Shown in pieces: positions 28,328-45,738 of a stretch of 45,764 nucleotides of DNA (position 1 is the stretch's first letter; every line of letters begins with the position of its first letter). Below the pieces are notes generated by a model that made no database searches, was not told the DNA's origin, and worked only from the letters and a program-made list of their open reading frames with translations. The translations under genes and the position numbers were made by a program. Source of the stretch: an uncultured SAR86 cluster bacterium (lineage in GTDB: Bacteria > Pseudomonadota > Gammaproteobacteria > Magnimaribacterales > Magnimaribacteraceae); assembly GCA_902606175.1 (NCBI GenBank), contig CACLEZ010000003.1:1-45764 (forward strand), written 5' to 3'.

Positions 28328-29077
28328 TTAATTAAAAGAATTGTTTTGTTTTTTGATCTCAAACAGCATTATTCCGGCACTTACTGATGCATTTAAGCTA
28401 TCCATTTTTTCTGACATCTTTATTTTGATAAGTTCATCACAATTTTCTCTAGTAAGCCTTCTAATGCCTTTATCTTCAGAACCAATTATTAATGCCACCT
28501 TCTCGGGGTAATCGATTTCGTTATATCCTAATGAGGCCTTCAAATCACTACCATAAACGGCCACTCCCATCTCTTGCAGATTATTAATTGTTCTCACTAT
28601 GTTAGTGACAATTACAAATGGAATAAGTTCTGAAGCTCCGCAGGATATTTTTCTAACTGAAGGAGTGAGATGACAAGATCGATTCTTTGGAACTATTACT
28701 GCATCCACATCTGCTGCTGCTGCGCTTCTTAAACATGCTCCAACATTATGTGGATCAGAGAGTCCATCTAAAATAAGAAATGTAAGTTTAGGCCTTTCAA
28801 TTATCGACTCTATGAAGGCTTCAGATTCTTCTAGTCTCTTATTGCAGGACACTGCAATGCTTTGATGATTGATATCTTTAAATACTTTTTCAAAAAATTC
28901 AGGATCTTTTTTATTGATTTTTATTTTATTTTTTTTAGCCTCTTCTACGACAGATTCGATCCTAGTATTTGTTATTTCGCTAAAATAAAGAGACTTAACC
29001 GATTTAGGCCTTGAGACTATTATTTGGTTTACAGCATTTAAGCCACATACCATTTCTTGATCAGGATTTGAGCTCAT
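28328..29077 (-). CDS. rlmB: 23S rRNA 2'-O-methyltransferase (Gm2251), TrmH/SpoU family
   Basis: A 249-residue SPOUT enzyme with an N-terminal substrate-binding domain (GLNAVNQII). The three knot motifs are DPHNVGACLRSA, IIGSEDKGIRRL and SLNASVSAGI. It methylates the ribose of a conserved G in the peptidyl transferase loop, using S-adenosylmethionine. It overlaps rnr by four bases, the usual rnr-rlmB order, which supports the RlmB name over other TrmH paralogues. Confidence 0.93.
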   Translation of the reverse strand: MSSNPDQEMVCGLNAVNQIIVSRPKSVKSLYFSEITNTRIESVVEEAKKNKIKINKKDPEFFEKVFKDINHQSIAVSCNKRLEESEAFIESIIERPKLTFLILDGLSDPHNVGACLRSAAAADVDAVIVPKNRSCHLTPSVRKISCGASELIPFVIVTNIVRTINNLQEMGVAVYGSDLKASLGYNEIDYPEKVALIIGSEDKGIRRLTRENCDELIKIKMSEKMDSLNASVSAGIMLFEIKKQNNSFN

Positions 29078-31011
29078 TTTACTAATCTAAGATCCACTTT
29101 CTGAGAAAAGACTTCCACCTTTTCAATCGTAGCTTTAACCTCATCTCCAAGGGAGTATGAATGTCTTGAACTATTGCTTTGTAACATTTTACTATCTTCA
29201 TCGAAGACATAATACTCATTACGAGGTAAATACTTTATGTGACAGAGGCCTTCTATATTTATCTCTTTTAAGTGAATAAATAAACCGAAATTAGTAACAC
29301 CAATTATCTGACCATTGAAAGTATTTCCAATATTCTCTGAAGCAAAAGCACACTTAAGGTGATTTAACGCTTCTCTTTCAGCTTTTTCTGCAACCCTCTC
29401 CTTTATAGAACAACTTTTTGAAGACTCCATTAACTGCTCATGGCTGTAAACAGGTTTAGTCTTTATAGAACTTTCGTCTATTTTAATATTTCCATCATTC
29501 GACCTTATTAAAGATTTTATTGCTCTATGAACTAGCAAATCAGGATATCTTCTTATTGGAGAGGTGAAGTGTGAATAGTTTGAGTAATTAAGGGCATAGT
29601 GGATTGCAACATCAGCTTCGTAAGTAGCCAAGCTCATAGAATATAAAATCTGTGAGTGAATGATGCTTTTATCTTTTCTATCTTTAGCTATTTCCGCCAG
29701 AGCTGTTAATTTTTTTATGTCGCTTCCATCGTCCAAAGCAGCATTAATCTTTCTACTTCTTAAAAATTTTTCAAGAGTTTTAATTTTTAATATATCCGGC
29801 TTTGGGTGAACTCTGTAAACGGAAGGTACTTTATGTTTTAAGCATAATTCAGCTGCCGATATATTTGCAGCAAGCATGAATTCTTCGATCATCATATGAG
29901 ATATCTCTCTAGGCGAATCAATAAATCGAACAATTTTCTGATTTTCTACCTTGGGAATGTATGAAGGTACTTCGAGCTCCAACGAGCCTCTTTCAACTCT
30001 ATTTTTCTTTAATCTTCTATAAATTTCTAATAGAACCCTTAAAGAATCCGCATAGGGTTTTTTAAATTGTTTTTTCTGTATTTCCCGTGTAACTGTGGGA
30101 TAAGTCAATCTAGACTTAGAATTGATTATTGCTTCGAAAAAAGAAGTGTCAGAGAGATTACCATCCGCACAGACTGTAGTTTTACAAACTACACAGAATC
30201 TATCTTCATCAGGTTTTAGTGAGCACAAATCGTTGCTTAATTCCTCAGGCAACATAGGAATTACTCTCTGCGAGAAATAAACTGAGGTTCCTCTATCAAA
30301 AGCTTCATTGTCTAGATGACTTCCTTCATCTATATAACGTGCAACATCGGCTATTGCTACGTATAAAATTAGATTTCCATGCTCATCCTTCTCTCCTAGC
30401 ACAGCATCATCAAAGTCTTTTGCACTTTTTCCATCTATAGTCACAAAAGTTTTATCCCTGAGATCTTTTACGGATTCAATATCAAAATTCTTATCTTTTA
30501 ACTTTCTTGATTCATTAATTACCGCCTTAGGCCATTCACGTTTAAGATTATGATTAGTTACAGCCATCTCATATGCCAAACTAAATTCATTATCTAAATC
30601 GAATAAAGAAATAAGATTTGCTTCAGGCAGTGCTTCTAGACTGGGTTGTTTATGCATCGAAAATTTACCGATGCCACCATCTTTTATCATTTTAGGATGC
30701 GGCTCTTTGATTAAAACTCTTAAATCATTTTCGTAGCCCATGGGACTTGTGTATAACCTTTTGCCTCTTCTAAATATCTTCCCAATAAACTCACTTGTAT
30801 TTTCTGTAATGACTTTATCTATTTTTGCCCAACCTTTTGGAGTAAGAGAAAATTGAACTAAGTCTCCAGGCATTGCTTTAAATAGTTCTTTCTTTCCAAG
30901 TTTAAATTGGGAATCATATTTGGAATCATCGACATAAAATCCTCTAGATTTATTAGATTTTTTTACAATCCCTCTGAACGCTTTAGAGGTTTGTTTGTAT
31001 GATTTTTTCAA
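29074..31011 (-). CDS. rnr: Ribonuclease R-type 3'-5' exoribonuclease
   Basis: A 645-residue RNase II/R family enzyme. Cold-shock-like domains occupy about 1-150 (RGIVKKSNKSRGFYV), the RNB catalytic domain follows with Asp193, Asp199, Asp201 and Asp202 (TIDGKSAKDFDDAV), and an S1 domain lies at about 560-645. It degrades structured RNA. Compared with E. coli RNase R (813) it lacks the N-terminal helix-turn-helix and the Lys-rich tail, and is the size of RNase II. The rnr name rests on coupling to rlmB. The start is TTG with no clear ribosome site, so the true start is uncertain. Confidence 0.88.
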   Translation of the reverse strand: MKKSYKQTSKAFRGIVKKSNKSRGFYVDDSKYDSQFKLGKKELFKAMPGDLVQFSLTPKGWAKIDKVITENTSEFIGKIFRRGKRLYTSPMGYENDLRVLIKEPHPKMIKDGGIGKFSMHKQPSLEALPEANLISLFDLDNEFSLAYEMAVTNHNLKREWPKAVINESRKLKDKNFDIESVKDLRDKTFVTIDGKSAKDFDDAVLGEKDEHGNLILYVAIADVARYIDEGSHLDNEAFDRGTSVYFSQRVIPMLPEELSNDLCSLKPDEDRFCVVCKTTVCADGNLSDTSFFEAIINSKSRLTYPTVTREIQKKQFKKPYADSLRVLLEIYRRLKKNRVERGSLELEVPSYIPKVENQKIVRFIDSPREISHMMIEEFMLAANISAAELCLKHKVPSVYRVHPKPDILKIKTLEKFLRSRKINAALDDGSDIKKLTALAEIAKDRKDKSIIHSQILYSMSLATYEADVAIHYALNYSNYSHFTSPIRRYPDLLVHRAIKSLIRSNDGNIKIDESSIKTKPVYSHEQLMESSKSCSIKERVAEKAEREALNHLKCAFASENIGNTFNGQIIGVTNFGLFIHLKEINIEGLCHIKYLPRNEYYVFDEDSKMLQSNSSRHSYSLGDEVKATIEKVEVFSQKVDLRLVK

Positions 31012-31139
31012 TGGATGGATTTCTGTTAAGCATTTTGCTTTTAACTTCGTAGAGTATTTTAAATCATTAAGTTCTTTAAGAGTGATTTTTGTATTAGGAC
31101 AAGGTTGCTTGCTAATAACTTAGCTATTAAAGTTGCGTT

Positions 31140-31298
31140 ATGCATATTGGAATTATTATTTCTTTAATATTTATAAGCCTTCTATTCTTTCTTTGGCAAT
31201 ATTCGAAAGGAGAGCAAGTTGGAAGAAGAATTGGTTTCTTATTAAATATTTGGGGAGCAGTAATAGTATTCTACTTATTCATGGTTGTTTTTTTATAA
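31140..31298 (+). CDS. Small two-helix membrane protein (52 aa)
   Basis: An ATG at 31140 opens a 52-residue frame: a first hydrophobic helix (IIISLIFISLLFFLW), a basic loop with KGEQVGRRIG, and a second helix ending in VVFL. The loop charge pattern gives both ends on the outside. It ends 12 bases before the acyl-CoA ligase, so it probably leads that operon. A longer overlapping frame (31133-31330) is Cys/Trp-rich without domain sense and is rejected. The family is unknown. Confidence 0.55.
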   Translation: MHIGIIISLIFISLLFFLWQYSKGEQVGRRIGFLLNIWGAVIVFYLFMVVFL

Positions 31299-31310
31299 CT
31301 GGGGAAAATT

Positions 31311-32855
31311 ATGTCTGTCAAACATTATGATTGGTCTGCATATCACGCTTATGTGAGGCCAACTAAGATAGCGATTCGTGATTTGAGTGCAAAACAAAGT
31401 CTTACTTACAAAGAGCTTGATGATAGAGCTTGTCTCTTGGCAAATTGGTTACAAAGAAAGGGAGTACAAAAGGGCGATAGGGTCGCAATTTTATCTCAGA
31501 ATTGTGCTGAATTTTTCGAACTAGAATTTGCTTGTGCAAAAATAGGAGCTATCGAGCTACCCTTAAATTGGCGATTAACAAAACCTGAACTTGAATATAT
31601 TCTTAATGACAGCACGCCTAAAGTTCTTATCTATGATGTATCTTTTTCTGACATCTCAAACGAATTAGTAAAAGACTGTAATATTTCCAGCTCTTTGGAG
31701 ATTGATAAGGAAGATTTAGAAAGCGAGTATGAAATTTCTTTGAAAGAGTCTAGCTATGACTTTGTTCAACCTGATATTAATCAAGAAGATTTGATAATGA
31801 TTATGTACACGTCTGGAACAACTGGTCATCCTAAAGGCGCAATGATTAATCATCAAATGCAACTTTATAACGCGATAAATCTTGCCTCTCCTGCATTCGT
31901 AGCAACGGATACAGTGCAGTTAGTAGTTTTACCGCTTTTTCATACAGGCGGAATGAATTGCTATGCAAATCCTGTTTTGCATGCAGGAGGAGAATTAATC
32001 CTCATAAGAGATTTTGATCCAGGCTTAGCATTATCAATCTTAGGAAGTGATGAATATAAGGTTTCTCACTTTTTTGCTGTTCCAGCTCCCTATCAGTTCA
32101 TGATGAATCATCCTGAGTTTGATAGTACTAATCTGTCAAATTTAAGAGTTGCAGGAATTGGAGGTGCTCCTTGCGCTGAAGCGATTCTTAGAACCTGGTC
32201 TGATAGGGGAGTATCAATGATTCAAGGTTGGGGTATGACTGAGACAAGTCCTGGAGGAATAGGACTGCCCGCTGAAGATGCAGAAAGAAAGTTAGGCTCT
32301 GCGGGAAAACCATTGCTACATACAGAAGTTAAAGTAGTTGATGATGAAGGTAAGGAACTCCCTTGGGGAGAGGTAGGGGAGCTCTATATTAGAGGTCCGA
32401 ATATCACACCTGGTTACTGGAATAATGAAGAAGCTACAAAGAACTCTTTCGAAGACGATTGGCTTAAAACTGGTGATGCTGCTAGATTTGATGATGAAGG
32501 CTTTATCTATATTGTAGATCGCTGGAAAGATATGTATATATCAGGTGGAGAAAATGTTTATCCGGCGGAAGTTGAAAATGTTCTTTATCAACTCCCGGAA
32601 ATTGCTGAGGCAGCAATTATTGGTGTTCCAGATGAAAGATGGGGTGAGACAGGTATAGCTTTCATAAGCCTCAAACCGGAACAAATGCTGGAAGAAAAAG
32701 ATATCATCCAGCATTGTCTAAATAACCTCGCAAAATTTAAAGTACCAAATTCAGTAGAGTTTATAGATGCCCTGCCCAGAAATGCTACTGGTAAGGTTTT
32801 AAAAAGAAACTTAAGAGATGATCTTCTTGGATCAGATGCTCCTGCAATTTCATGA
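31311..32855 (+). CDS. AMP-forming acyl-CoA synthetase
   Basis: A 514-residue adenylate-forming ligase. The P-loop is MYTSGTTGHPKGA, the adenine motif GWGMTETSPG, the hinge and ribose region TGDAARFDDEGF...DRWKDMYISGGENVYP, and the catalytic Lys lies in LPRNATGKVLKR. It joins a carboxylic acid to CoA through an acyl-AMP. GGGGA is five bases before the ATG. It overlaps the GST by four bases. As first enzyme of the run with the LDI-family protein it probably activates the pathway acid; medium-chain, branched or aromatic acids are all possible. Confidence 0.94.
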   Translation: MSVKHYDWSAYHAYVRPTKIAIRDLSAKQSLTYKELDDRACLLANWLQRKGVQKGDRVAILSQNCAEFFELEFACAKIGAIELPLNWRLTKPELEYILNDSTPKVLIYDVSFSDISNELVKDCNISSSLEIDKEDLESEYEISLKESSYDFVQPDINQEDLIMIMYTSGTTGHPKGAMINHQMQLYNAINLASPAFVATDTVQLVVLPLFHTGGMNCYANPVLHAGGELILIRDFDPGLALSILGSDEYKVSHFFAVPAPYQFMMNHPEFDSTNLSNLRVAGIGGAPCAEAILRTWSDRGVSMIQGWGMTETSPGGIGLPAEDAERKLGSAGKPLLHTEVKVVDDEGKELPWGEVGELYIRGPNITPGYWNNEEATKNSFEDDWLKTGDAARFDDEGFIYIVDRWKDMYISGGENVYPAEVENVLYQLPEIAEAAIIGVPDERWGETGIAFISLKPEQMLEEKDIIQHCLNNLAKFKVPNSVEFIDALPRNATGKVLKRNLRDDLLGSDAPAIS

Positions 32856-33469
32856 TGAAGTTATATGATTTTCCTCAAGCACCTAACCCAAGAAGGGTAA
32901 AAATATTTGCTGAAGAAAAGCAAATAGCCTTAGAGCTTGTCAACTGTGATATGGCAAGCAGAGAGCATAAGTCACCAGAATTTTTAAAAAAGAACCCTAG
33001 TGGAAAAATTCCTGTATTAGAACTAGAAGATGGAAGATGCATATCAGAATCAATACCTATCTGCAGATATCTAGAGAGTCTCGAGCCAGAACCTAACTTA
33101 TTTGGAGAAGATGCTTTTGAGACTTCATTTATCGAAAGTAGAAATAGACACATAGAGTTAGAACTTTGGACTCAGATCGGAACTTCATGGGTTAATGGAC
33201 CAATTGTTGGCGCTATGGGTTTATTTAAGCAGATTCCAGCTGCCAAAGAAGCAAGTGATAATAATGTTAATTCTTACTACAAAAGATTAGATAATGAATT
33301 CTCATCTTCAGAATATGTGGCGGGAAATAGGTATACAGTTGCAGACATTACTCTTTTATCAGCTATAGACTTTGCTTCGAGTATGGTAGAGCTTAAACCT
33401 CATGAGAGTCTAAAAAATCTGCATAGATGGCATAATCAGATACTATCAAGACCTAGTTCATCAATTTAA
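32852..33469 (+). CDS. Glutathione S-transferase (bacterial, theta/zeta-like)
   Basis: A 205-residue two-domain GST. The thioredoxin domain starts KLYDFPQAPNPRRVKIF, with PSGKIPVLELEDG (cis-Pro) and ISESIPICRYLE (the Ser that contacts glutathione gamma-Glu). The C-terminal domain has the N-cap motif NRYTVADITLL. ATG overlaps the ligase stop (ATGA), so expression is coupled. GSTs in catabolic operons often open epoxides or isomerise intermediates, but the reaction here is not known. Confidence 0.9.
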   Translation: MMKLYDFPQAPNPRRVKIFAEEKQIALELVNCDMASREHKSPEFLKKNPSGKIPVLELEDGRCISESIPICRYLESLEPEPNLFGEDAFETSFIESRNRHIELELWTQIGTSWVNGPIVGAMGLFKQIPAAKEASDNNVNSYYKRLDNEFSSSEYVAGNRYTVADITLLSAIDFASSMVELKPHESLKNLHRWHNQILSRPSSSI

Positions 33470-33476
33470 TAATCTA

Positions 33477-35138
33477 ATGCAAAACAATCATCCTGCACTG
33501 AACGAAAGAGCTAAAGGATGGCTAAATTTTTTACATCAAAAGGCAACTACATCAGATGATTGGTCAGAAGCAGGAACTCCAAATGAATGGTGGGATCAGA
33601 CATCAACACCACCAATGTGCTCTTTCCCCCGTTTTGATCTTCAAGAGTCAACCTATGCAATAGGGTTGATGGCCGATAAGACTCCTGCTTGGAGAGAGGT
33701 TTATTCAGAAATTCTTGATGAAATCGCTGAACGTTCAATTACTTACTGGGCAGCTGTTGATTGGCTATCTCAATTTGGTCATGATCCGAATAGGCAAAAT
33801 TATCCCGAAGCATGGAAAGGTACTCTTATTCCAGAAGAATTTTGGGGTAATTATGACGCCCCCGGATGGACTGCTAATGGCGTTGCGCCGTGGGGATTTC
33901 ATATGGATCCTATTGGTGCGGATGGTAATTTATTTTTTAAAGGCTGGCTCAATTTAACTCAATCTTTGCATACTTATGTTAGTGGTTATGATAAGTGGTC
34001 TAGTTCCTTTAGTGTTGCCGGCGCTTATAATTCACGATTCGAATGGACTCAACATCAATTAGCTGACCATCTGCATCAGCAATGGTCTAAAACTCCTATG
34101 GGACCTCATTGTGAAAATACTAAAGCTTGGCCATTTTGTCTGTCAGCTGCTGGATTAGGATTAATGATGTATGACAAAATTTTTGATAATAATTTCCATA
34201 GTTCATACTCTAATTGGTTATCTTTTACTAAAGATAAATATTATGGATTTGATAAGAGTGGTGCTTTGCAATGGGTCACAATGTATTTCGATGAAATTAA
34301 CGATCATCATCACAAAACATTACCTACTCATGGTCTTGCAGTAGCGTTTTATGCAAAACCACAAGACCCTCATTTTGCTGAACTTCTTTATCGAGGTGCC
34401 ATTAATTTTCTAGGATGGGACAACCCATCTATTCCGATTACAAATGAATATATATCTGATCCAAGAATGTTTGCGCTTGGATTGACTATGTCTAGAGAAT
34501 TTGACGATCAGGTTACTTATGAGAGACTAAAAAAATATGCAGAAGAAAATTTTGAACCACAATTCTTTGGTATTAATGACAGTAAGTTTGGATTTTGGTT
34601 TAACTTTGGAGAAAACTGGCCGAGAGGGCAGCTTTCTGCATTAGCCATGTGTGCAGAAGTTTGTGAACCTGATGCATGGGAAAATCTTTTCAATAATCCT
34701 AATCTAACTAAGTTCTATTCACCTAGCATTCAAGGGATTGACTTTCCATCTTTATATGTTGAAAAGGCTTTTCATGATGACCAGAAAGGAAGATTACATT
34801 TCAGTATATGCGACGGTGATAAAACTAAGACTAATCGAAGTACAACTGTAGAAGTTTTCAATCTACCTAATTCAAATTCCATTGATGTTTTATGTGATGG
34901 TAAAGTATTTAAAGATTACAAAATCATCGATAATTCAAAAATAACTATTAATACCGAAGTAGCAAATCATAATTTTGAAATAACGACAGGCTATTATTTA
35001 TCAAAGTTAGAAGAACAAGACTTAAACAAGAAGCTTAAAGAATATAATAATCCAAATAATGAAAATTTGAGTAGTTCTTCAAAAGTAAATTCCAAATTAA
35101 TCCTACCTACTAATCTTAATTCGTGCGGTTGCTGTTGA
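33477..35138 (+). CDS. Linalool dehydratase/isomerase (LDI)-family protein
   Basis: A 553-residue protein with the (alpha/alpha)6-barrel signatures of LDI: PRFDLQESTYAIGLMADKTP, the PIGADGNLFFKG stretch (145-156) and GPHCENTKAWPFCLS. In Castellaniella defragrans LDI converts linalool to myrcene and isomerises it to geraniol; its active site uses Asp39/Tyr45 and Cys171/Cys180. Here Asp54 and Tyr60, and Cys212 and Cys221, keep those exact spacings, and His142 lies near the expected catalytic His. Unlike the Castellaniella enzyme it has no signal peptide, and the position three after Tyr (a disulfide Cys there) is Gly63. It ends in CGCC. Substrate is probably an alkenol, not necessarily linalool. 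Genes 7 bases before and about 55 after suggest one operon. Confidence 0.88.
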   Translation: MQNNHPALNERAKGWLNFLHQKATTSDDWSEAGTPNEWWDQTSTPPMCSFPRFDLQESTYAIGLMADKTPAWREVYSEILDEIAERSITYWAAVDWLSQFGHDPNRQNYPEAWKGTLIPEEFWGNYDAPGWTANGVAPWGFHMDPIGADGNLFFKGWLNLTQSLHTYVSGYDKWSSSFSVAGAYNSRFEWTQHQLADHLHQQWSKTPMGPHCENTKAWPFCLSAAGLGLMMYDKIFDNNFHSSYSNWLSFTKDKYYGFDKSGALQWVTMYFDEINDHHHKTLPTHGLAVAFYAKPQDPHFAELLYRGAINFLGWDNPSIPITNEYISDPRMFALGLTMSREFDDQVTYERLKKYAEENFEPQFFGINDSKFGFWFNFGENWPRGQLSALAMCAEVCEPDAWENLFNNPNLTKFYSPSIQGIDFPSLYVEKAFHDDQKGRLHFSICDGDKTKTNRSTTVEVFNLPNSNSIDVLCDGKVFKDYKIIDNSKITINTEVANHNFEITTGYYLSKLEEQDLNKKLKEYNNPNNENLSSSSKVNSKLILPTNLNSCGCC

Positions 35139-35193
35139 TACTTTTTTGAAAAGACTCTAATGTAAATATTTATTCATTTTTATTTATTGGTTT

Positions 35194-36024
35194 ATGTCTC
35201 TTTCAGAATTTTCATTAAAAGGTAAAAAAGCTTTAGTAATTGGAGCAAGAAGGAATATGGGGAAGGGCTTTGCTCTTGGACTTGCTGAAGCAGGTGCTGA
35301 TGTTGCAGTCACAGATCTAAATACTGAATCAGGTCAACTCAATGCTGTCTGCGAAGAAATCAAGGCGATGAACAGGAATTCTATCTGCATCAAGACCGAT
35401 ATATCTTCTCAGCTAGATGTAAAAAAAATGGTAGATCAAGTTAAGCAGGAATTCGGACGAATCGATATTTTGATGAATGTGGCTGTCATGTACCACATGA
35501 AACCTGTGACTGATCTGGATGAAGAAAGTTGGGATATGCTGAGTAATGTAAATTTGAAAGGTTACTGGCTAACTATTCAGGAAGTAGCCCCAATAATGAA
35601 GAAGCAAAAAAGTGGAAGCATAATAAACCTAACTTCGAGAGGCGGACTTAAGGCACATGCTGATAAAGCTATGGGAAACTATGCAATAGTTAAATCAGGT
35701 ATAGCAATGATGACAAGACAGTATGCAAGATATCTTGGACCTCATAATATAAGAGTTAATGCTATTGCACCTTCTTTAGTCGAGTGGGAAGAATTTCCGG
35801 GCCAAGAAAATAGAGAAAATAAAAAAACTACTAAAGAAGAAGTAAAAAAAGAAATATCTGAAAAAGAGAAATTCGAAGTATGGTCTACCGGACCGGAAAA
35901 TATTCCTTTAGGTCGTGTTGCTACCTTTAATGAAATGGCGAATGCGGCTGTTTTTCTTGCATCTGATGCATCTAGTTATGTAAACGGTACTATCTTAAAT
36001 GTTGATGGCGGATACATGGCATGA
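35194..36024 (+). CDS. Short-chain dehydrogenase/reductase
   Basis: A 276-residue SDR. The cofactor loop reads GARRNMGKG (17-25), Asp41 after strand two suggests NAD, and the catalytic Ser148, Tyr163 and Lys167 (YAIVK) are present. The usual NNAG is NVAV (95-98). A Lys/Glu-rich loop (about 204-225) replaces the substrate lid and is unusually charged. In this operon it would fit oxidation of an alcohol made or used by the LDI-family enzyme. Its stop overlaps the VOC start by four bases. Confidence 0.9.
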   Translation: MSLSEFSLKGKKALVIGARRNMGKGFALGLAEAGADVAVTDLNTESGQLNAVCEEIKAMNRNSICIKTDISSQLDVKKMVDQVKQEFGRIDILMNVAVMYHMKPVTDLDEESWDMLSNVNLKGYWLTIQEVAPIMKKQKSGSIINLTSRGGLKAHADKAMGNYAIVKSGIAMMTRQYARYLGPHNIRVNAIAPSLVEWEEFPGQENRENKKTTKEEVKKEISEKEKFEVWSTGPENIPLGRVATFNEMANAAVFLASDASSYVNGTILNVDGGYMA

Positions 36025-36941
36025 TGCTTAACTGGGAATTTAATCATCTTGGGATGATGGTCACTGATCGAGATGAAATATTGAGCTACTATCAGTCTAT
36101 TGGACTTGGAGTTAGCGTAGGACCTCAACCTCTATTGCCATACATAGAAGGTGAAGGAGAAATAACTTTTTTTAAAGAGCTGGACGGCGAACCTGTCTCT
36201 CATAAATTCGAAACGGGGGGAGCGCATAACTTTAAAGATGGCCAATCGCAAATTGGAAATTGTCAGCTTGAAGTTTATCCCATGCAGCCCGGACCCGGCA
36301 TGTTCATTAGCAGATATCTAGAAAAGAAAGGCGATGGAATTAATCATATAGCTTTTAATACGAATGATATTGAAGGAGATACTCAATTCTTTTTAGATCG
36401 AGGCTGCGATTTAGTTTTTAATGTCACAACTAACGGCAAAACTGTAGAAAACTACATCGATACTAGATTACATGGAGATTTAATGATTTCTTTGAGACCG
36501 CCAGCAGATACTTGGGAAAAATCTTGGCGAAAAAATAATGAATCACATCCTCTAGTGAATAAATGGAAATTTTTAGGATTAGGAATATGTGTTAATGATT
36601 TGGAGTCTGCTTCTGGTTATTACTCCAACCTGGGTTATGAGACTATTGAAGAAAAGAAGGTCAGAAAAGAATGGAAAATAACCTCTCAAGAATTCTATAT
36701 CAGTAATATACTTTTTGAATTGATACAGGCCGAAAAGGACAGTATTTATAGAAATTCATTAGCACAACGAGGTGATGGAGTTGCAGAAATGATATTTCAG
36801 GTTTCCGATCTGAAAACAGAAATAGATTTACTTAACATTAAAGGCGCTAAAATACTTAGAGTTTCTGATGATAAGAAAACGGCTTATATTGATTCATGTA
36901 TGAAAGGTAACTTACTTACTAGGCTTATAGAAAAGGAATAA
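36021..36941 (+). CDS. Two-domain VOC (glyoxalase/dioxygenase superfamily) protein
   Basis: A 306-residue protein with two vicinal-oxygen-chelate modules. The first (about 5-160) has metal-ligand candidates His9 (FNHLGM), Glu84 (LEVY) and His109 (GINHIAF), like methylmalonyl-CoA epimerase. The second (about 180-305) lacks the matching His residues (FLGLGICV, EMIFQV), so it is probably structural or binds substrate. Possible reactions are epimerisation of a branched acyl-CoA, ring or C-C cleavage, or lyase chemistry. It is translationally coupled to the SDR. Confidence 0.82.
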   Translation: MMLNWEFNHLGMMVTDRDEILSYYQSIGLGVSVGPQPLLPYIEGEGEITFFKELDGEPVSHKFETGGAHNFKDGQSQIGNCQLEVYPMQPGPGMFISRYLEKKGDGINHIAFNTNDIEGDTQFFLDRGCDLVFNVTTNGKTVENYIDTRLHGDLMISLRPPADTWEKSWRKNNESHPLVNKWKFLGLGICVNDLESASGYYSNLGYETIEEKKVRKEWKITSQEFYISNILFELIQAEKDSIYRNSLAQRGDGVAEMIFQVSDLKTEIDLLNIKGAKILRVSDDKKTAYIDSCMKGNLLTRLIEKE

Positions 36942-36943
36942 CC

Positions 36944-37081
36944 ATGGAATTTTCATCTTTCATCGCTGCTATTTTCATATTTATTATCTGCCTAATAGTG
37001 GCGTTGAAGCCGAGTAAAATTATTACACTTCTGGGTGCAGTTCTCATTCTTCCGCTGCTACTTCTCGTAATCTATCAGTGA
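36944..37081 (+). CDS. Small two-helix membrane protein (45 aa)
   Basis: A 45-residue frame starting 2 bases after the VOC stop, with AAGGA well placed upstream. Helix one is FIAAIFIFIICLIVAL, then a KPSK turn, then ITLLGAVLILPLLLLVIY. It resembles a hairpin protein, possibly an accessory to a transporter or membrane enzyme. The family is unknown. It closes the LDI operon, which also begins with a two-helix small protein. Confidence 0.65.
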   Translation: MEFSSFIAAIFIFIICLIVALKPSKIITLLGAVLILPLLLLVIYQ

Positions 37082-37223: not shown

Positions 37224-37238
37224 ATGGGGGGACCAACA

Positions 37239-39821
37239 ATGTTTGGAAAAATTCGTGAAAAGTTAACCTTTTATCTTTCAACTTTTGTTTTATTAAATGC
37301 TTCTGCATTCGGTGGCTATGCTATGGCTCAAGATGCTTTAGAAGAAATTGTAGTTACTGCAAGAAAAAAAGCAGAAAGTTTACAAGACGTACCCTTGTCT
37401 GTTTCGGCTCTTAGAGAGAGCTCTCTTGAAGAACTTGGTGTAAATGTTTTTGAAGATTATTTACTTCAGCTTCCGAGCGTCACAGCTGGTGGAGCTGGTC
37501 CAGGAACAAGTACTATCTACATCAGAGGTCTTGCATCCACAACCCCTAATCTTACAACAGCAGGTGTTGGTGGTTTGGCCCCAAACGTATCATTTTATCT
37601 TGATGAGCAACCCCTGGCTCAACCTGGAAGAAATCTAGATGTATATGCTGCAGATATTGGTCGTATAGAAGTATTGAAGGGACCCCAAGGAACACTTTTT
37701 GGAGCTAGTTCCCAAGCCGGTGTAGTAAGAATGATTACTAATAAGCCCGTGATAGGGGAAACTGAATTGAACCTAGAGCTTGAAACAAGGCGCATGGGCG
37801 AGGGAGATCCAGGTGGAAAGGCTGAATTAGTTACAAACATACCTTTGGGTGAATCAACCGCTATGAGATTTGTTGCTTACAGAGATAGAAAAGGTGGTTA
37901 TATTGATCAAGTTGCAGGCTCAGTAGATGTGAGCCAATCTGCGCGCTTTAGACTCGAAGGGGCAGTTAGAGATAACGGACTACCTGTTTCTGCTGCAAGA
38001 AAAGGTTTTCAGGCCGGCGTTGACCTTGCAGGTGTCACAATGCCTAAAGCAAATGCTATTGTTAAAGAAAATATAAATGAAGTTTCTTATGAAGGTTACA
38101 GAGCAAGCATAGCTCATGAGATAGACGACAATTGGGAAGCTCTTGTTACGGTTTCAGGACAAACTTTAGAATCTGATGGAGTATTTTTTACTGATCCTGC
38201 CTTAGATGATCTGGAAATTCAGAGATATCATAATGATAGTCTTAAAGATGAATTTGATAATGCTAGCCTAACTATCGAAGGCTCAATTGGTGATTTGGAA
38301 ATCCTTTACACAGGCGCTTACACTGACAGACAGTCGGATCAGATAATCGACTACACAGACTATCTTTTTGTAGGTCAATATTTACCTTATTACATCTGTG
38401 ACTACTATGTTACGTATACAAAATTCGCACCAGGTAATGTCCCAACCGGAAATTGCGGCGCACCTGATATGTTTGTTGATTCCATAACAGATACTGAAGT
38501 GAAAACACATGAGATAAGAATCAACACTCCTGTGGCTGATAATATGAGTTTGACTGCAGGTGCATTTTTTAGCGATCTAGAGTTAAAGGAACACAATATG
38601 TTCACTTATCCAGGCTCACCAGTAAGTGATATCGGATTCAAAACGAACTATGCTCTGACTGATATTTCAGTTACTGGAATACCAGATCATGGTAAGTCCA
38701 AGATGTATGCTGGAGCAGGTTGGCATTCAGGAAGAGGGCCTTATGAACTCCCAGTCGTTTTTGTTAATGACGTTCGAAGAACTGATAAACAGCAAGGTGT
38801 TTTCGGTGAATTGAGCATAGATATAAATGATGATATTGAATTGACTCTTGGAGCCAGGTGGTATGACATTGAGGTTGATCTTGAAGGTAGTGCAAACGCT
38901 TCATTCGGAAATGGTTTTGGTGGACCAGATGAACAGAGATTTGGAACTAATCTCTCTGTTCAATACGACGAACCAGGAGCAGTGTCCGGCAATGCTCTAC
39001 TAGATGCTCTAAATTATCCTGACAAAGCAGAAACAGATGGTGTTATAGGTAAAGCCACTTTATCTTGGAATAGAACACAAGACACTATGTACTATGTGAC
39101 ATGGTCTGAAGGCTTTAGACCAGGATTATTAAATCGTCCAGCGGGACAATCAACACCAGATGGCTCTTACACTGTCAGACCTGTAACGGATTCTGATGAA
39201 GTAACAAATTATGAATTCGGATGGAAGTCTGTATTAAATGACGGAAGATTAAGGTTCAACGGAAGTGTATTTTTTGTAGATATTTCAGGTTTACAAACAA
39301 CAATATTTGATCCAAGCATAGCAAACCTTTTCTTCTCAGATAATGCTGCAGATGCTGAGATTTCAGGTATTGAAGGTGATTTCTTATATTACCCCAATAT
39401 TGAAGGTTTGATGATTTCAGGTGCTTTCTCTTTGCTAGATTCTGAGATCAAGAAGTCCTTAACCACTACCGATGTTATTGCAGGGCAAGAGTTAGCCTTT
39501 GCTCCTGGTGTGCAGGCGAATTTGGTAGCTAGATACGAGTGGGGGCTTACCGCTGGCAATCAAGGTCATGTTCAAGCTCAAGTTAATTGGTCTGATGAAA
39601 GTTTTTCAGACATTATTGAACCAAACAAAGCAAAACAAGATAGTTATAGTTTTGTTAATTTACGTGCGGGTATAAGCAATGATGATTGGATGACAGAGAT
39701 GTATGTCGATAACGTGACCGATGAGAGAGCAGAAATTAGTAATAATTTTGTTTTTGATCGACAGCGTGTAGCTGTTATCAGACCAATGAACTATGGTTTT
39801 AGGTTTAAACGTAAATTCTAG
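37239..39821 (+). CDS. TonB-dependent outer-membrane receptor
   Basis: An 860-residue receptor; the start is ATG 37239 because GGGGGGA lies six bases before it and inside the longer frame from 37224. A signal peptide ends at AMA (residue 30). The TonB box EEIVVTARKK follows at 35-44, then the plug with RIEVLKGPQGTLFGASSQAG, then the beta barrel ending in a C-terminal Phe (FRFKRKF). It imports a scarce ligand through the outer membrane with energy from TonB. The type, with an IVVTA box and a QGTLFG plug, is the broad group used for carbohydrates, siderophores, steroids or other organics. It is expressed alone or nearly so, given the terminator after it. Confidence 0.94.
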   Translation: MFGKIREKLTFYLSTFVLLNASAFGGYAMAQDALEEIVVTARKKAESLQDVPLSVSALRESSLEELGVNVFEDYLLQLPSVTAGGAGPGTSTIYIRGLASTTPNLTTAGVGGLAPNVSFYLDEQPLAQPGRNLDVYAADIGRIEVLKGPQGTLFGASSQAGVVRMITNKPVIGETELNLELETRRMGEGDPGGKAELVTNIPLGESTAMRFVAYRDRKGGYIDQVAGSVDVSQSARFRLEGAVRDNGLPVSAARKGFQAGVDLAGVTMPKANAIVKENINEVSYEGYRASIAHEIDDNWEALVTVSGQTLESDGVFFTDPALDDLEIQRYHNDSLKDEFDNASLTIEGSIGDLEILYTGAYTDRQSDQIIDYTDYLFVGQYLPYYICDYYVTYTKFAPGNVPTGNCGAPDMFVDSITDTEVKTHEIRINTPVADNMSLTAGAFFSDLELKEHNMFTYPGSPVSDIGFKTNYALTDISVTGIPDHGKSKMYAGAGWHSGRGPYELPVVFVNDVRRTDKQQGVFGELSIDINDDIELTLGARWYDIEVDLEGSANASFGNGFGGPDEQRFGTNLSVQYDEPGAVSGNALLDALNYPDKAETDGVIGKATLSWNRTQDTMYYVTWSEGFRPGLLNRPAGQSTPDGSYTVRPVTDSDEVTNYEFGWKSVLNDGRLRFNGSVFFVDISGLQTTIFDPSIANLFFSDNAADAEISGIEGDFLYYPNIEGLMISGAFSLLDSEIKKSLTTTDVIAGQELAFAPGVQANLVARYEWGLTAGNQGHVQAQVNWSDESFSDIIEPNKAKQDSYSFVNLRAGISNDDWMTEMYVDNVTDERAEISNNFVFDRQRVAVIRPMNYGFRFKRKF

Positions 39822-39842
39822 GCTATAAATAGAAAATTAAAG

Positions 39843-39864
39843 GGGAGCTTTTGCTCCCTTTTTT
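39843..39864 (+). terminator. Rho-independent terminator
   Basis: GGGAGC-TTTT-GCTCCC forms a perfect stem followed by six T. It lies 21 bases after the TonB-receptor stop and separates it from the sulfotransferase gene. Confidence 0.9.
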
Positions 39865-39900
39865 CCTTCAAGAAAGTAATGAGGGAACAGAAGCAATTTT

Positions 39901-41931
39901 ATGGATAAAAATAAGGTAGACATTGATGATACCAATATCTCATTGGATCTAAGTGATGCGACTCAAGCTGTCAAAGAAAATAGATTTCAAGATGCTATTT
40001 TATTGTTAAAAAGAATTCTTAAAGATCAGCCCGATAATATCGATGCCTTATATCTTTCGGCTGTTTCTAGCAGATTCCTTAAGAAATTTGATGAATCTAA
40101 AAGTTACATTATGGATTTATTGTCAAATGCTCCCGATATGGGTCGGGCTTATCAGGAATATGGACATTTAAACAGAGATCAAGGGAACGAAGAAAAAGCT
40201 GTGATGCACTATAGACAAGCTTGCGAACTTAACCCCGCTCTTGTAGCTTCTTGGAATTTTCTTTTCCAATACTTTACGAAATATAAAAATAAACCTGCAG
40301 CAGATCATGCAGAGGAACAACTCAAAAAGTTGAAATCTTTACCCGCATTGCTTTTGTATATTAGTCAAATACTCAATGAAGGCAGGCTTGGATTGGCTGA
40401 GGAAAAATGCAGAGCTTTTCTTAAAAAGAATCCCACACATACATATGCTATGTCCCTTCTTGCTGAAATAGCAAATAGACTGGGATATTTCGATGACGCC
40501 GAATTCTTACTTGAGAAAGCAGTTGAATTTAGTCCAGATGATGGGGACTTGAGAACGAAATATGCAGAAATACTTAGGAAAAAACAAAAATTTTCTAAAA
40601 CTATGGAGCAAGTTGAAATACTCTGTGAGAAGTTCCCTAATAACCTAAATTATAAGGCACAAAAAGCAAGTGAGATCATGCAAAATGGTGATCATCAGGA
40701 AGCTATAAATTTACTCAATGATATTCTTAAAAAGAATCCTTATAACTTTAGTACGCTTACTTCAAGAGGTCATGCGCAAAAAACATTAGGTAAGACAGAT
40801 CAAGCAATTGAAAGTTATCAATCTGCTTATCAAATTAAACCTGATCATGGAGAAGCATTCTTTTCCCTAGCGAACTTGAAGACTTACTCTTTTACAAATC
40901 AAGAATTAGATAACATGAGAACACAAGTTGAAAGAATAGATTTATCATTGAGAGATAAAGCATATTTTCATTTTGCTCTTGCTCAAGGATGTGAGGTAAA
41001 GGGTGAATTTGAGGAAGCTTTTCATCATTTAGTTCGAGGTAACCAAATTAAAAAAGATCAAAGTCAATATTCTATTGAGAGAATGGACAATGAATTAAGT
41101 GCTCAAATGAATGTTTGCGATGATTCATTCTTCACTGACTTAGGCGATGGAGGATATCAAACTAAAGACCCAATATTTATACTGGGTCTTCCCAGAGCTG
41201 GATCTACCTTAATAGAACAGATCTTAGCATCACATTCGATGATTGATGGCACATTAGAACTTCCAAATATTCTCTCAATTGCACAAAGTTTAAGAGGTGA
41301 AGATATCTATGGAAAACTTGGCAATTATCCAAAAAGTATGAAGTCTATGACGCCTGATCAAAGAAAAGTATTAGGTAGAAACTTCATTGAAGATACGAGA
41401 ATGCACAGAAAAGATGCTCCTTTTTTTACCGATAAAATGCCTAATAATTTTAGGCATATCGGATTAATTCATTTGATTATGCCAAATGCAAAGATTATTG
41501 ATGCAAGAAGATACCCTCTTGATTGTTGTTTCAGTATGTTTAAACAGCTTTTTGCACAGGGCCAAGAATTCACATACGGACTTGAGGAAGCTGGCAGCTA
41601 CTACAATAGTTACGTCAAACTAATGAATCATTGGGAATCGGTTCTGCCCGGCAAGATATTAAGAGTAAATAATGAAGATATAGTTGAAGATCTTGAAGGA
41701 CAAGTTTCCAACATCCTTGAATTTCTTGAGTTACCTTTTGAAGAGGAATGTATTTCCTTTTATGAAACTGAGAGATCAGTAAGGACTGCTAGTTCCGAGC
41801 AAGTCAGAAAACCTGTTAATAAAGAAGGCATGGGAAGATGGAAACCTTATGCTAGATATTTAAAACCCCTAGTTAAAACTCTAGATAAAGATCTTCTCAA
41901 GTCTGAAGATATTATCCATATTAATGAATAG
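39901..41931 (+). CDS. TPR-repeat sulfotransferase
   Basis: A 676-residue protein with about ten tetratricopeptide-like helical pairs in residues 15-380, then a sulfotransferase domain. The 5'-phosphosulfate-binding loop is GLPRAGST (429-436), and a 3'-phosphate-binding Arg/Ser element lies in RRYPLDCCFSMF. It should move sulfate from PAPS to a hydroxyl or amine, with the TPR part choosing a protein or polymer partner. Such genes commonly follow TonB receptors in marine bacteria, but the acceptor is unknown. No signal peptide is seen. It follows a terminator, so it has its own promoter, and is nine bases before the BCCT gene. Confidence 0.9.
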   Translation: MDKNKVDIDDTNISLDLSDATQAVKENRFQDAILLLKRILKDQPDNIDALYLSAVSSRFLKKFDESKSYIMDLLSNAPDMGRAYQEYGHLNRDQGNEEKAVMHYRQACELNPALVASWNFLFQYFTKYKNKPAADHAEEQLKKLKSLPALLLYISQILNEGRLGLAEEKCRAFLKKNPTHTYAMSLLAEIANRLGYFDDAEFLLEKAVEFSPDDGDLRTKYAEILRKKQKFSKTMEQVEILCEKFPNNLNYKAQKASEIMQNGDHQEAINLLNDILKKNPYNFSTLTSRGHAQKTLGKTDQAIESYQSAYQIKPDHGEAFFSLANLKTYSFTNQELDNMRTQVERIDLSLRDKAYFHFALAQGCEVKGEFEEAFHHLVRGNQIKKDQSQYSIERMDNELSAQMNVCDDSFFTDLGDGGYQTKDPIFILGLPRAGSTLIEQILASHSMIDGTLELPNILSIAQSLRGEDIYGKLGNYPKSMKSMTPDQRKVLGRNFIEDTRMHRKDAPFFTDKMPNNFRHIGLIHLIMPNAKIIDARRYPLDCCFSMFKQLFAQGQEFTYGLEEAGSYYNSYVKLMNHWESVLPGKILRVNNEDIVEDLEGQVSNILEFLELPFEEECISFYETERSVRTASSEQVRKPVNKEGMGRWKPYARYLKPLVKTLDKDLLKSEDIIHINE

Positions 41932-41939
41932 AAGATTAT

Positions 41940-43532
41940 ATGAATCATAATTTTAATAATGCCTCAACTTCTATAATCAGACCTATGAAGAACGTAAAAT
42001 TTTTAGGTTTAGACGTTAACTTACCGGTTTTCTTAATCAGCTCTGGACTGGCAATTCTTTTTTCTTGCTTGGTACTAATTTTTCCGGAGGCTTCAAGTAC
42101 TTTTCTTACAAGAAGTAGGCAATTTGTTGTCAGTAGGTTTGATACTTTATTTACAGTTTCGATGTTGTCTTTTACTTTCATAATTCTCTTTTTAATAGTT
42201 TCCCCTTTTGGAAAGATTAAACTTGGTGGAAAGGATTCATCTCCAGAATTTAGTTTCTTATCATGGATTTGCATGCTATTTGCAGCAGGTGTGGGTATAG
42301 GAATGACTTTTTATGGAGCCGCCGAACCTCTCTCTTACTATACAGGAGTCTTTGGAACGCCATTAAATATTACCCCGGGGACTGAAGAAGCGAGGAGATT
42401 AGCTTTTAGCGCCACAATTTTTCATTGGGGTATAAATGGTTGGTCTGTATATGCAATTATAGGACTGTCACTTGCTTTCTTTAGTTACAACTGGAAATTG
42501 CCTTTAACCATTCGTTCAATATTCTTCCCCCTTCTTGGTAATAAAATTTGGGGATGGCAGGGAGACTTAATAGACATAATAGCTGTTTTGGCTACTTTAT
42601 TTGGTTTAGCTACTTCCCTAGGATTAGGTGCACAACAAGCATCTTCTGGTTTATATTATTTATTTAATTTACCCAATAATTTAGTCAGTCAATCTTTGGT
42701 CATAATCTTTATTACATCTGTAGCAATTTTTTCGGTTTATAGAGGTCTTGATAAGGGTGTACGTATATTGAGTAATTTAAATATAGCCTTAGCTTTATTG
42801 TTATTACTTTTTGTAGTTCTCGCTGGACCAACATATCAAATAATTTCTTCTTATGGGGCGAATTTAATAGCATATTTTCAGGATATAGTTCCATTAAGTA
42901 ACTGGAATAGATCTGAAGATCGTGATTGGTATCAAGATTGGACAATCTTTTATTGGGCTTGGTGGATTTCTTGGTCTCCTTTTGTTGGAATGTTTATTGC
43001 TCGTATCTCAAAAGGAAGAACAATAAGAGAGTTTTTATCTGTGGTTATGTTTATACCTCTAATATTCAATTTAATCTGGTTTTCTTCATTTGGCGGAGCA
43101 GCAATTTCTCAATTTGAAGAAGGAATTGGCATGTTAAGTGAGCCCGTAAGTGATATTTCCCTAGTACTTTTTTATATGTTAGATAATTTATTCTTACCCA
43201 CCTTAACAAGCTTATTTGCCCTCTTTATGTTGGTTCTCTTTTTTGTGACCTCATCTGATTCAGGCTCTTTGGTCATTGATACGATAACTTCTGGAGGGCA
43301 AGATAATAATTCAAGTAAACAAAGAGTAATCTGGGCAATAATTCAGGGCTTAATAGCGATAGTGTTATTGGTTGGAGGTGGCTCTTATGCTTTATCAGCA
43401 ATTCAGTCGGGTGCAATATCAATGGCATTGCCATTTGTATTTATATTGATATCTGCAACATTGAGTTTGTTGCGAGGAGTCTATATAGAAGTATACGATT
43501 CAAAAAAAATGGAAGATTTACATGGAAGATAA
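41940..43532 (+). CDS. BCCT-family transporter (betaine/choline/carnitine)
   Basis: A 530-residue inner-membrane carrier with about twelve helices. Signature segments are AAGVGIGMTFYGAAEPL (115-131), FHWGINGWSVYA (161-172) and YWAWWISWSPFVGMF, whose clustered Trp residues form the aromatic cage for trimethylammonium groups in BetP. ARISKGRTIREF and VTSSDSGSL are also family motifs. The GVGIGM glycine stretch is like that of sodium-coupled members. Likely cargo is glycine betaine, choline, carnitine or DMSP. The C-terminal regulatory tail is short, so it may be a nutrient importer. It overlaps the MarR gene by 11 bases. Confidence 0.93.
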   Translation: MNHNFNNASTSIIRPMKNVKFLGLDVNLPVFLISSGLAILFSCLVLIFPEASSTFLTRSRQFVVSRFDTLFTVSMLSFTFIILFLIVSPFGKIKLGGKDSSPEFSFLSWICMLFAAGVGIGMTFYGAAEPLSYYTGVFGTPLNITPGTEEARRLAFSATIFHWGINGWSVYAIIGLSLAFFSYNWKLPLTIRSIFFPLLGNKIWGWQGDLIDIIAVLATLFGLATSLGLGAQQASSGLYYLFNLPNNLVSQSLVIIFITSVAIFSVYRGLDKGVRILSNLNIALALLLLLFVVLAGPTYQIISSYGANLIAYFQDIVPLSNWNRSEDRDWYQDWTIFYWAWWISWSPFVGMFIARISKGRTIREFLSVVMFIPLIFNLIWFSSFGGAAISQFEEGIGMLSEPVSDISLVLFYMLDNLFLPTLTSLFALFMLVLFFVTSSDSGSLVIDTITSGGQDNNSSKQRVIWAIIQGLIAIVLLVGGGSYALSAIQSGAISMALPFVFILISATLSLLRGVYIEVYDSKKMEDLHGR

Positions 43533-44025
43533 TCATCTAGAGGAAGCGCTAGTCGCAATTAGGCGGGTAATGAGAGCTACTGAAATAAATTCATTGTCTT
43601 TAGCAAAGAAATCACAGCTTACCCCAACGCAGCACATTGTTCTGCAGATCATTGCTAATAAGAAACACACCACACCAAGTCATATTTCATATATAACAAC
43701 TTTGAGACATACAACCATTGCAACGGTCATCAATAAACTTCTATCTAGAGATCTAATAACAAGAGAGAAAGGTATAAATGATAAAAGGATTCAATATTTA
43801 AATATCACTGAAGAAGGACTGAAGATACTTGAATCATCGCCAGATGTTCTGCAAGATAAATTCAAAGAACAATTTTCTAGCTTAAATGACTGGGAGCAAA
43901 GCATGATCGTGTCCTGTTTACAGAGGGTAGCAAGATTTATAGATGCAGAAGAAATAGATGCTGCACCGATCTTGGATTATGGCGGCTTAAATGAAGAACC
44001 TGAAGAATATCTGAATGAAGAGTAA
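43522..44025 (+). CDS. MarR-family transcriptional regulator
   Basis: A 167-residue winged-helix repressor. Residues 28-100 carry the DNA-binding domain: LTPTQHIVLQII, then PSHISYITTLRHTTIATVINKL (recognition helix), then the wing LITREKGINDKRIQYLNITEEG, in which Asp-Lys-Arg is the usual wing sequence. Flanking helices form the dimer. The acidic tail (about 145-167) is unusual. Its overlap with the BCCT gene suggests that it senses or controls uptake of that cargo. Confidence 0.93.
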   Translation: MEDNHLEEALVAIRRVMRATEINSLSLAKKSQLTPTQHIVLQIIANKKHTTPSHISYITTLRHTTIATVINKLLSRDLITREKGINDKRIQYLNITEEGLKILESSPDVLQDKFKEQFSSLNDWEQSMIVSCLQRVARFIDAEEIDAAPILDYGGLNEEPEEYLNEE

Positions 44026-45277: not shown

Positions 45278-45360
45278 GAATCTTTTATTATTCATTTGCA
45301 TTTTTAAGCTGTTCGTTTATTGCAAGAGAGATTTATGATTTTAGATTCGAGATAGATTTT

Positions 45361-45738
45361 ATGAATAATGTGTACAAAATATTAAGAGAATATGAATGGG
45401 AAGAGGCTAAAGAATCAGGTCAAATTACTACGGCTTTAGATAAGCAAGATGGATTCATTCATTTATCAACTGCTTCTCAACTAGCTGCCACATTAGCTTT
45501 TTTCTTCAAGGATTCAGATTCTCTTCAACTCTTGCAACTAAATTTAGATAAGATAGATGAAACTCAACTAATCTATGAATCTTCTCATCCTAATGAAGGG
45601 AAAAGAAATAGTGCTTTTCCTCATCTTTACTCTAAATTAATGACTAACCAAATATTTGAAAGTTGGAATATAAAAAGAGGAAGTTTTAGTCTTCCCGAAG
45701 AGGTTCTGCTTCAGGCAGAAAACCTAATTGAAGAATAA
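45361..45738 (+). CDS. DUF952 family protein
   Basis: A 125-residue protein. GFIHLSTASQLAATLAFFF and FPHLYSKLM are the hallmarks of DUF952, a small domain with a fold related to ADP-ribosyltransferase-like proteins. No signal peptide. Function is not established; family members are usually cytoplasmic and single. It stands 83 bases after the M28-like gene. Confidence 0.85.
   Translation: MNNVYKILREYEWEEAKESGQITTALDKQDGFIHLSTASQLAATLAFFFKDSDSLQLLQLNLDKIDETQLIYESSHPNEGKRNSAFPHLYSKLMTNQIFESWNIKRGSFSLPEEVLLQAENLIEE

Follow-up and report, generated by a model that had tools for sequence, protein, structure and literature searches.

A cysteine-tailed protein of the linalool dehydratase/isomerase family in a mosaic SAR86 gene cluster, with a putative role in the breakdown of isoprenoid alcohols

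Our analysis concerns a stretch of 45,764 nucleotides from an uncultured SAR86 cluster bacterium (contig CACLEZ010000003.1 of assembly GCA_902606175.1, hereafter the window; contig C3 of genome G000, a 1.32 Mb assembly that is 80.7% complete), and within it a row of seven genes at positions 31140-37081 that includes a 553-residue member of the linalool dehydratase/isomerase (LDI) family. We propose that this protein belongs to a cytosolic, tail-bearing SAR86 subfamily of LDI that would act on allylic isoprenoid alcohols ahead of their coenzyme A (CoA)-dependent breakdown, a reading to which we assign a probability of roughly 0.45. It is built on features of the DNA and its translations, namely the family itself, a conserved cysteine pair, a cysteine-bearing tail, the lack of a hydrophobic N-terminus, a modular gene content, an apparent recombination tract and an AtuA-containing gene row on another contig. 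Taken as a swappable unit, the cluster suggests an undescribed breakdown route with plant- or algae-type isoprenoid alcohols as the putative substrates.

Features and distribution of the LDI-family protein

Judged by sequence comparison, membership of the 553-residue protein (33477-35138, plus strand) in the LDI family is firm. As the first-pass annotation of the window had assigned it, the protein matches PF18566, at 45.6 bits against a cut-off of 26.1 and over profile positions 66-304 of 318, and a profile built from 11 homologues matches the Castellaniella LDI structures at 70 bits (E=1.2e-18) with the cysteine pair aligned. Direct alignment with an LDI chain sets Cys212 and Cys221 (C-x8-C) on the catalytic residues C170 and C179 of LDI, and the profile match falls in the same register. 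The pair is kept in all 18 complete SAR86 copies and, at exact spacing and together with E213, in 11/11 rows of an alignment (A3) in which three rows come from outside SAR86. D54 and Y60 are invariant in a further alignment (A2). A Kyte-Doolittle scan, which is not a signal-peptide predictor, detected no hydrophobic segment over the whole length of the protein.

The C-terminal end carries a second set of cysteines. Across the 18 SAR86 copies C552 and C553 are 100% conserved and C550 89%; the terminus reads C-x-C-C in 17 copies and R-x-C-C in the remaining one. Ahead of this tail (residues 550-553) lies a linker, residues 506-540, whose mean pairwise identity among the same copies is merely 36%. 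A conserved motif placed after such a linker suggests that selection acts on these cysteines as part of a mobile arm. Because both LDI and the related linalool isomerase (LIS) need a reductant, it is a reasonable guess that the arm may re-reduce the active-site pair, with metal binding as the alternative. Outside SAR86, the homologue in G247 bears CACC twelve residues ahead of its C-terminal end, and the C-x-C-C tail is absent from the G292, G837 and Streptomyces homologue sequences.

A protein search recovered LDI homologues in 21 of the 35 genomes of the family, spread over five of its seven genera, and in none of the four family genomes with a completeness of 90% or more. Not all of the 21 matches are full-length: those in G033 and G011 stop at a contig edge, and a third, in G006 of genus g4, is a remnant of about 50 residues (L043:12703-12849), lying between an M28-like gene and a gene like the desaturase-like gene of locus L038, which we regard as what is left after loss. 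The PF18566 profile itself finds 18 of the 203 genomes of the order, all within the family (0/168 genomes of other families). Beyond the order our sets are samples rather than full surveys; that of the class (369 genomes, own included) holds three other matches, G247, G292 and the fragmentary G375, and that of the phylum (398 genomes, searched with PF18566) holds G837 and G763 besides our own genome. A 38% homologue is present in two Streptomyces plasmid records.

Gene arrangements among relatives

Loci were compared by tblastn of the window proteins on fetched relatives. The first-pass annotation had proposed a search for conserved synteny, and this search found the five enzyme genes, encoding an acyl-CoA ligase, a glutathione S-transferase (GST), the LDI-family protein, a short-chain dehydrogenase/reductase (SDR) and a two-domain VOC protein, in the same order in 8 of the 19 genomes of the bacterium's own genus (g1: G000, G017, G021, G023, G025, G028, G030 and G032) and in two of six genomes of genus g6 (G013 and G014). 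The neighbourhood is conserved in related genomes, and its grouping is therefore not due to chance. Of the two outcomes that the first-pass annotation named as refuting, a neighbourhood without conservation and a 553-residue protein without an LDI-family hit, neither came about. The same order is cut by contig ends within the VOC gene of G031, within the LDI gene of G033, and in G010 and G011 of g6.

The remaining arrangements take the set apart. Within g1, ligase-GST-LDI occurs without SDR-VOC in two genomes (G020, G034), ligase-SDR-VOC without GST-LDI in three (G022, G024 and G029, the last a single contig that is 95% complete), and SDR-VOC without ligase, GST and LDI in one (G026); in G019 a ligase-GST pair runs into the contig end, and G018 and G027 gave no LDI, ligase, GST or VOC match at the thresholds used. 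No LDI, ligase or GST match was found in G012 and G015 of g6, nor any LDI, ligase, GST or VOC match in G016 (g7). Elsewhere in the family, G005 (g3) has ligase-SDR-VOC and no LDI, while all three g4 genomes have ligase-GST (cut in G006); G008 has its LDI gene, and G006 its remnant, on a separate contig, and no LDI was found in G007. Among the four g2 genomes the ligase is followed by a luciferase-like monooxygenase in G001, G002 and G003; in G001 and G003 an SDR-VOC pair comes further along, behind other genes, and the contig of G002 ends before that point; LDI lies on other contigs in G001 and G003 and was not found in G002 or G004. In G009 (g5) LDI sits among different neighbours with no close ligase. 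In g1 and g6 all LDI-positive genomes (16/16) have a GST gene directly upstream of LDI; of those in g2, g4 and g5 none does (0/5).

The cluster is thus a mosaic at a variable site and not one fixed pathway, and the earlier view of seven genes serving a single pathway gives way to one of separable gene sets, seen as ligase-SDR-VOC without GST-LDI, ligase-GST-LDI without SDR-VOC, SDR-VOC alone, and other LDI neighbours in three genera. The left anchor of the site is constant and consists of rnr and sTM1, a small gene that lies beside rnr in every fetched locus containing the rnr start, including L076, which lacks ligase, GST and LDI. On the far side, 12 listed loci show tuf in seven and a birA-like gene in six, both named by eye.

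Several peculiarities of single loci were recorded in the course of this comparison. Contig C14 of G014 (L035/L044) carries the locus twice as inverted copies, a probable assembly artefact, and the ligase of G001 (L080:2711-4185) is divided into two frames. An apparent ligase-GST fusion in G021 (L032:6832-8991, read as 719 residues, open frame of 729), produced by a short insertion or deletion close to the 3' end of the ligase gene that brings both genes into one frame, is probably a sequence error, the two genes being separate at nine other printed junctions and at the window's own. In g2, g4 and G247, DUF1330 genes are located no more than about 7 kb from LDI (L036:11147-11434, L038:1246-1533, L043:9339-9626 and L099:1399-1704; profile-based for L036 and L099, by eye for L038 and L043); the short g5 contig showed none.

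Exchange of the GST-LDI segment

Compared with G023 in 150-base windows, the DNA is 95-100% identical over an approximate tract at 32340-35340, from the ligase 3' end to the SDR 5' end (98-100% over 32939-35188), and 79-95% identical next to it, rising again to 96-99% at the left end (31139-31738). Gene by gene, GST and LDI stand at 99%, lpxC, rlmB, rnr, ligase, SDR and VOC at 88-92%, a TonB receptor gene and a sulfotransferase gene at 74-77%, and sTM1, BCCT and MarR genes at 99%, 95% and 94%. Against G028 the pattern is the opposite, with lpxC, rlmB, rnr and ligase at 86-91% and GST to VOC at 74-81%. Both patterns fit the replacement of a segment, GST-LDI included, by homologous recombination between relatives, pointing to an exchange of GST-LDI among them.

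The genes further right seem to be exchanged separately from LDI. In the region 37224-45738 the genes for the TonB receptor and a TPR-sulfotransferase show 93% DNA identity to G022 and 74-82% to G023, G024, G026, G028 and G029; they are followed by BCCT, MarR, M28-like and DUF952-like genes.

Link to isoprenoid catabolism

The bacterium's own genome encodes an AtuA-family protein (PF07287, 535 bits), on contig C10, in a row of four genes for a carboxylase beta subunit, a biotin carboxylase, AtuA and an enoyl-CoA hydratase. The hydratase scores 121 bits against a gamma-carboxygeranoyl-CoA hydratase cut-off of 426, and the carboxylase beta subunit 260 bits against a cut-off of 999 for TIGR01117, the sole model listed for it, both far below. 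Around a carboxylase paralogue on contig C13 no leucine/isovalerate operon was recognised by eye, the closest same-strand neighbour being an aldehyde dehydrogenase gene. Near the AtuA row, L105:14353-15969 encodes a flavin monooxygenase whose best NCBIfam match is pentalenolactone D synthase (259 bits, cut-off 1100). AtuA is found in 28/35 genomes of the family.

Outside SAR86, the G247 homologue (52% identical) adjoins a divergently oriented AtuA gene (462 bits) and stands in a row with P450, FAA hydrolase and DUF1330 genes, assigned by profile, and extended SDR, alcohol dehydrogenase and TonB receptor genes, assigned by eye. The terpenoid or alkenol pathway suggested at first reading has gained a link to isoprenoid catabolism, through the AtuA row of the genome and the G247 homologue beside AtuA and P450, though this link is indirect.

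Organization of the seven-gene row

The packing described in the first-pass annotation was confirmed: seven co-directional plus-strand frames fill 31140-37081, either overlapping or set apart by 55 bases at the most, the longest gap being that between LDI and SDR. The marine origin suspected there also holds, since relatives place the DNA in SAR86. Pfam support covers the five enzyme genes, and the flanking sTM1 (31140-31298, 52 residues) and sTM2 (36944-37081, 45 residues) were characterised by hydrophobic segments alone, each encoding a two-helix membrane protein with two such segments on the Kyte-Doolittle scale. After sTM1 comes the AMP-binding acyl-CoA ligase (31311-32855, 514 residues; PF00501, 323 bits), which scores 524 bits against the long-chain-fatty-acid--CoA ligase subfamily model PRK06187 of NCBIfam (cut-off 476). 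Its stop overlaps the start of the GST gene in the sequence ATGATG; the GST (32852-33469, 205 residues; PF02798/PF00043, GST_N/GST_C) has yeast Gtt2 as its top match among solved structures (E=8e-28). Downstream of LDI are the SDR (35194-36024, 276 residues; PF13561, adh_short_C2, 192 bits) and the VOC protein (36021-36941, 306 residues; PF13669, Glyoxalase_4, and PF00903, Glyoxalase). The N-terminal half of the latter resembles methylmalonyl-CoA epimerase, with a TIGR03081 score of 54.5 bits that is below the cut-off of 115, and its H9, E84 and H109 are invariant across 12 aligned sequences. The constant left flank comprises rnr, the RNase R gene (29074-31011, minus strand), with rlmB and lpxC, all named by eye. 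Promoter-like sites (13 found, 22.6 in shuffled sequence) and terminator-like sites (4 found, 3.6 in shuffles) are no richer than chance, so the label of operon rests on spacing and synteny.

Discussion

In the scheme that we favor, the conserved cysteine pair would serve to convert tertiary and primary allylic isoprenoid alcohols into one another, to dehydrate them, or both, the candidate substrates being of the linalool/geraniol type and possibly longer chains such as isophytol and phytol. The SDR or other dehydrogenases would then oxidise the primary alcohol, the ligase would activate the resulting acid, and the CoA ester might be broken down by the AtuA-type carboxylase, hydratase and lyase genes located elsewhere in the genome. 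GST-LDI would be an exchangeable supplement to a unit of ligase, SDR and VOC, at the variable site beside rnr. The reaction, its substrate and the order of steps, as well as any roles of the GST and VOC proteins, are what we infer from these families and their context.

A number of observations weigh against this proposal. The match to LDI is limited to about residues 142-365 of 553, and within it the active-site H128 of LDI is replaced by Trp157 (KGHLNL in LDI, KGWLNL here). D54 and Y60 could be paired with D38 and Y44 of LDI only through their spacing of 6, in a region outside the LDI alignments; an AlphaFold2 model from a ten-sequence alignment (A1) is poor (mean pLDDT 37) and supports no claim; and the PF18566 homologue of G763 shows no cysteine pair in its translation. 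Since some relatives without LDI also have ligase, SDR and VOC, the LDI product need not be what these three enzymes act on. AtuA, SDR and ligase are broad families, and AtuA shows no association with LDI, being present in 17/21 LDI-positive and 11/14 LDI-negative family genomes (the four LDI-positive genomes in which it was missed, G011, G021, G023 and G028, are all incomplete); equally common without LDI, AtuA is a general family trait and therefore not evidence of a specific tie.

The changed active-site residue also lies at the heart of a possible alternative, which we entertain tentatively: the LDI fold and cysteine pair may have been kept for a different chemistry, and the replacement of His by Trp and the added C-terminal domain would mark another substrate class (CoA- or glutathione-bound, steroid-side-chain or polar alkenol). 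Tryptophan is found at this position in 18/18 SAR86 copies, in G247 and, by eye, in the Streptomyces homologue, with tyrosine in two remoter homologues of alignment A3, and the neighbours of LDI outside g1 and g6 are diverse (P450, amidohydrolase, amidase, sulfatase, fatty-acid desaturase-like and DUF1330 genes). The invariance of both catalytic cysteines and E213 in every homologue of that alignment, however, speaks for the retention of LDI chemistry, as does the AtuA gene adjoining the G247 homologue. We consider it unlikely that LDI is a passenger, with no pathway in common, in a generic detoxification or lipid-handling cluster whose ligase, GST, SDR and VOC proteins act on diverse acids and electrophiles. 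Each of these enzyme families is promiscuous, ligase-SDR-VOC does occur without LDI (L073-L075, L078) and LDI is found among other neighbours in g2, g4 and g5, but the pairing and order of GST-LDI are strict in g1 and g6, the two genes share one apparent recombination tract, and the ends of the ligase and GST genes overlap. A binning or assembly artefact joining unrelated genes, to which the incompleteness of most genomes, the inverted duplicate in G014 and the lack of LDI in the most complete family genomes might point, is refuted by the same gene order across many assemblies, some of which (L024, L027, L028, L029, L032) carry AG-/AH- isolate codes, presumably of single-cell isolates, and is highly improbable.

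Extending our proposal of an LDI subfamily acting on isoprenoid alcohols, we can also envisage, as a long shot, that the subfamily is oxygen-tolerant and self-protecting. Here the C-x-C-C arm would re-reduce the active-site cysteine pair with glutathione and the GST, much as a C-terminal cysteine arm re-reduces the active site of ribonucleotide reductase, and SAR86 might use isophytol- and phytol-type alcohols from algal chlorophyll in oxic seawater through the ligase and an AtuA-type route, with the cluster serving as a swappable niche-adaptation cassette. Phytol as a substrate is our own idea, a literature search on phytol and isophytol having returned no on-topic title. A search that left subscription papers mostly outside its reach returned no paper on LDI together with GST and CoA ligase, on PF18566, or on SAR86 and acyclic terpenes.

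SAR86 is an abundant surface-ocean lineage. Should our proposal prove true, this conserved SAR86 relative of LDI would bring cofactor-free alkenol chemistry into an aerobic marine heterotroph; it would also provide a biocatalyst that is soluble, and would point to isoprenoid alcohols as a carbon source for SAR86. As close relatives either have or clearly lack GST-LDI, the question lends itself to a comparison of strains.

Comparison with known systems

Two characterised enzymes, LDI and LIS, are named in the portions available of the sources cited here, both from denitrifying betaproteobacteria and both dependent on a reductant. LDI (LinD) of Castellaniella defragrans 65Phen (EC 4.2.1.127 / 5.4.4.4) has in common with the SAR86 protein PF18566 and the spacing of C170 and C179. 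Excerpts of the LDI literature give H128, Y44, D38, C179 and C170 as key residues (PMC12455561), a need for reduced thiols (PMC6600392, PMC6013536) and a signal peptide (PMC6013536). The need for reduced thiols makes a cytosolic enzyme plausible. Unlike LDI, the SAR86 protein has no visible signal peptide, is about 180 residues longer than the solved chains of 371-372 residues, has tryptophan in place of H128, ends in the C-x-C-C tail, and has other gene neighbours and a SAR86 host; the capping disulfide C48-C101 of LDI lies in an N-terminal part outside the alignment with the window protein. Activity at the level of an EC number is not firm, because the active-site residue H128 is changed and the localisation appears different.

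LIS of Thauera linaloolentis 47Lol, known to us by description only, is a distant relative of LDI whose cytosolic catalytic domain of about 500 residues needs a reductant and whose gene, lis, lies with atu genes, according to partial texts (PMC4791888, PMC4847356). It has four N-terminal transmembrane helices (PMC4791888, in the part available), whereas the SAR86 protein has none. The protein encoded upstream of the Streptomyces homologue (L110) was found to have no LIS-like membrane anchor. A protein of 135-136 residues with three hydrophobic segments (L036:10720-11127, L043:1566-1976), which overlaps the LDI start in g2 and lies about 11 kb from the LDI remnant of G006, might correspond, as a separate protein, to the membrane domain of LIS.

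The Atu pathway of Pseudomonas and Thauera is matched in our genome by an AtuA-family protein, an acyl-CoA carboxylase pair and an enoyl-CoA hydratase, but the SAR86 row lies on a different contig from LDI, and AtuA is as common in LDI-free relatives. For HTCC2089, Prokka calls of 'linalool 8-monooxygenase' are given in the part available of PMC8371827.

A last comparison is offered by the gene clusters for the degradation of isoprene, a small isoprenoid, in which iso genes occur with GSTs, the SDR IsoH and the CoA-acting IsoG. The seven SAR86 genes differ in having no monooxygenase and a ligase in place of the CoA transferase, and resemble these clusters in combining a GST, an SDR and a CoA-activating enzyme.

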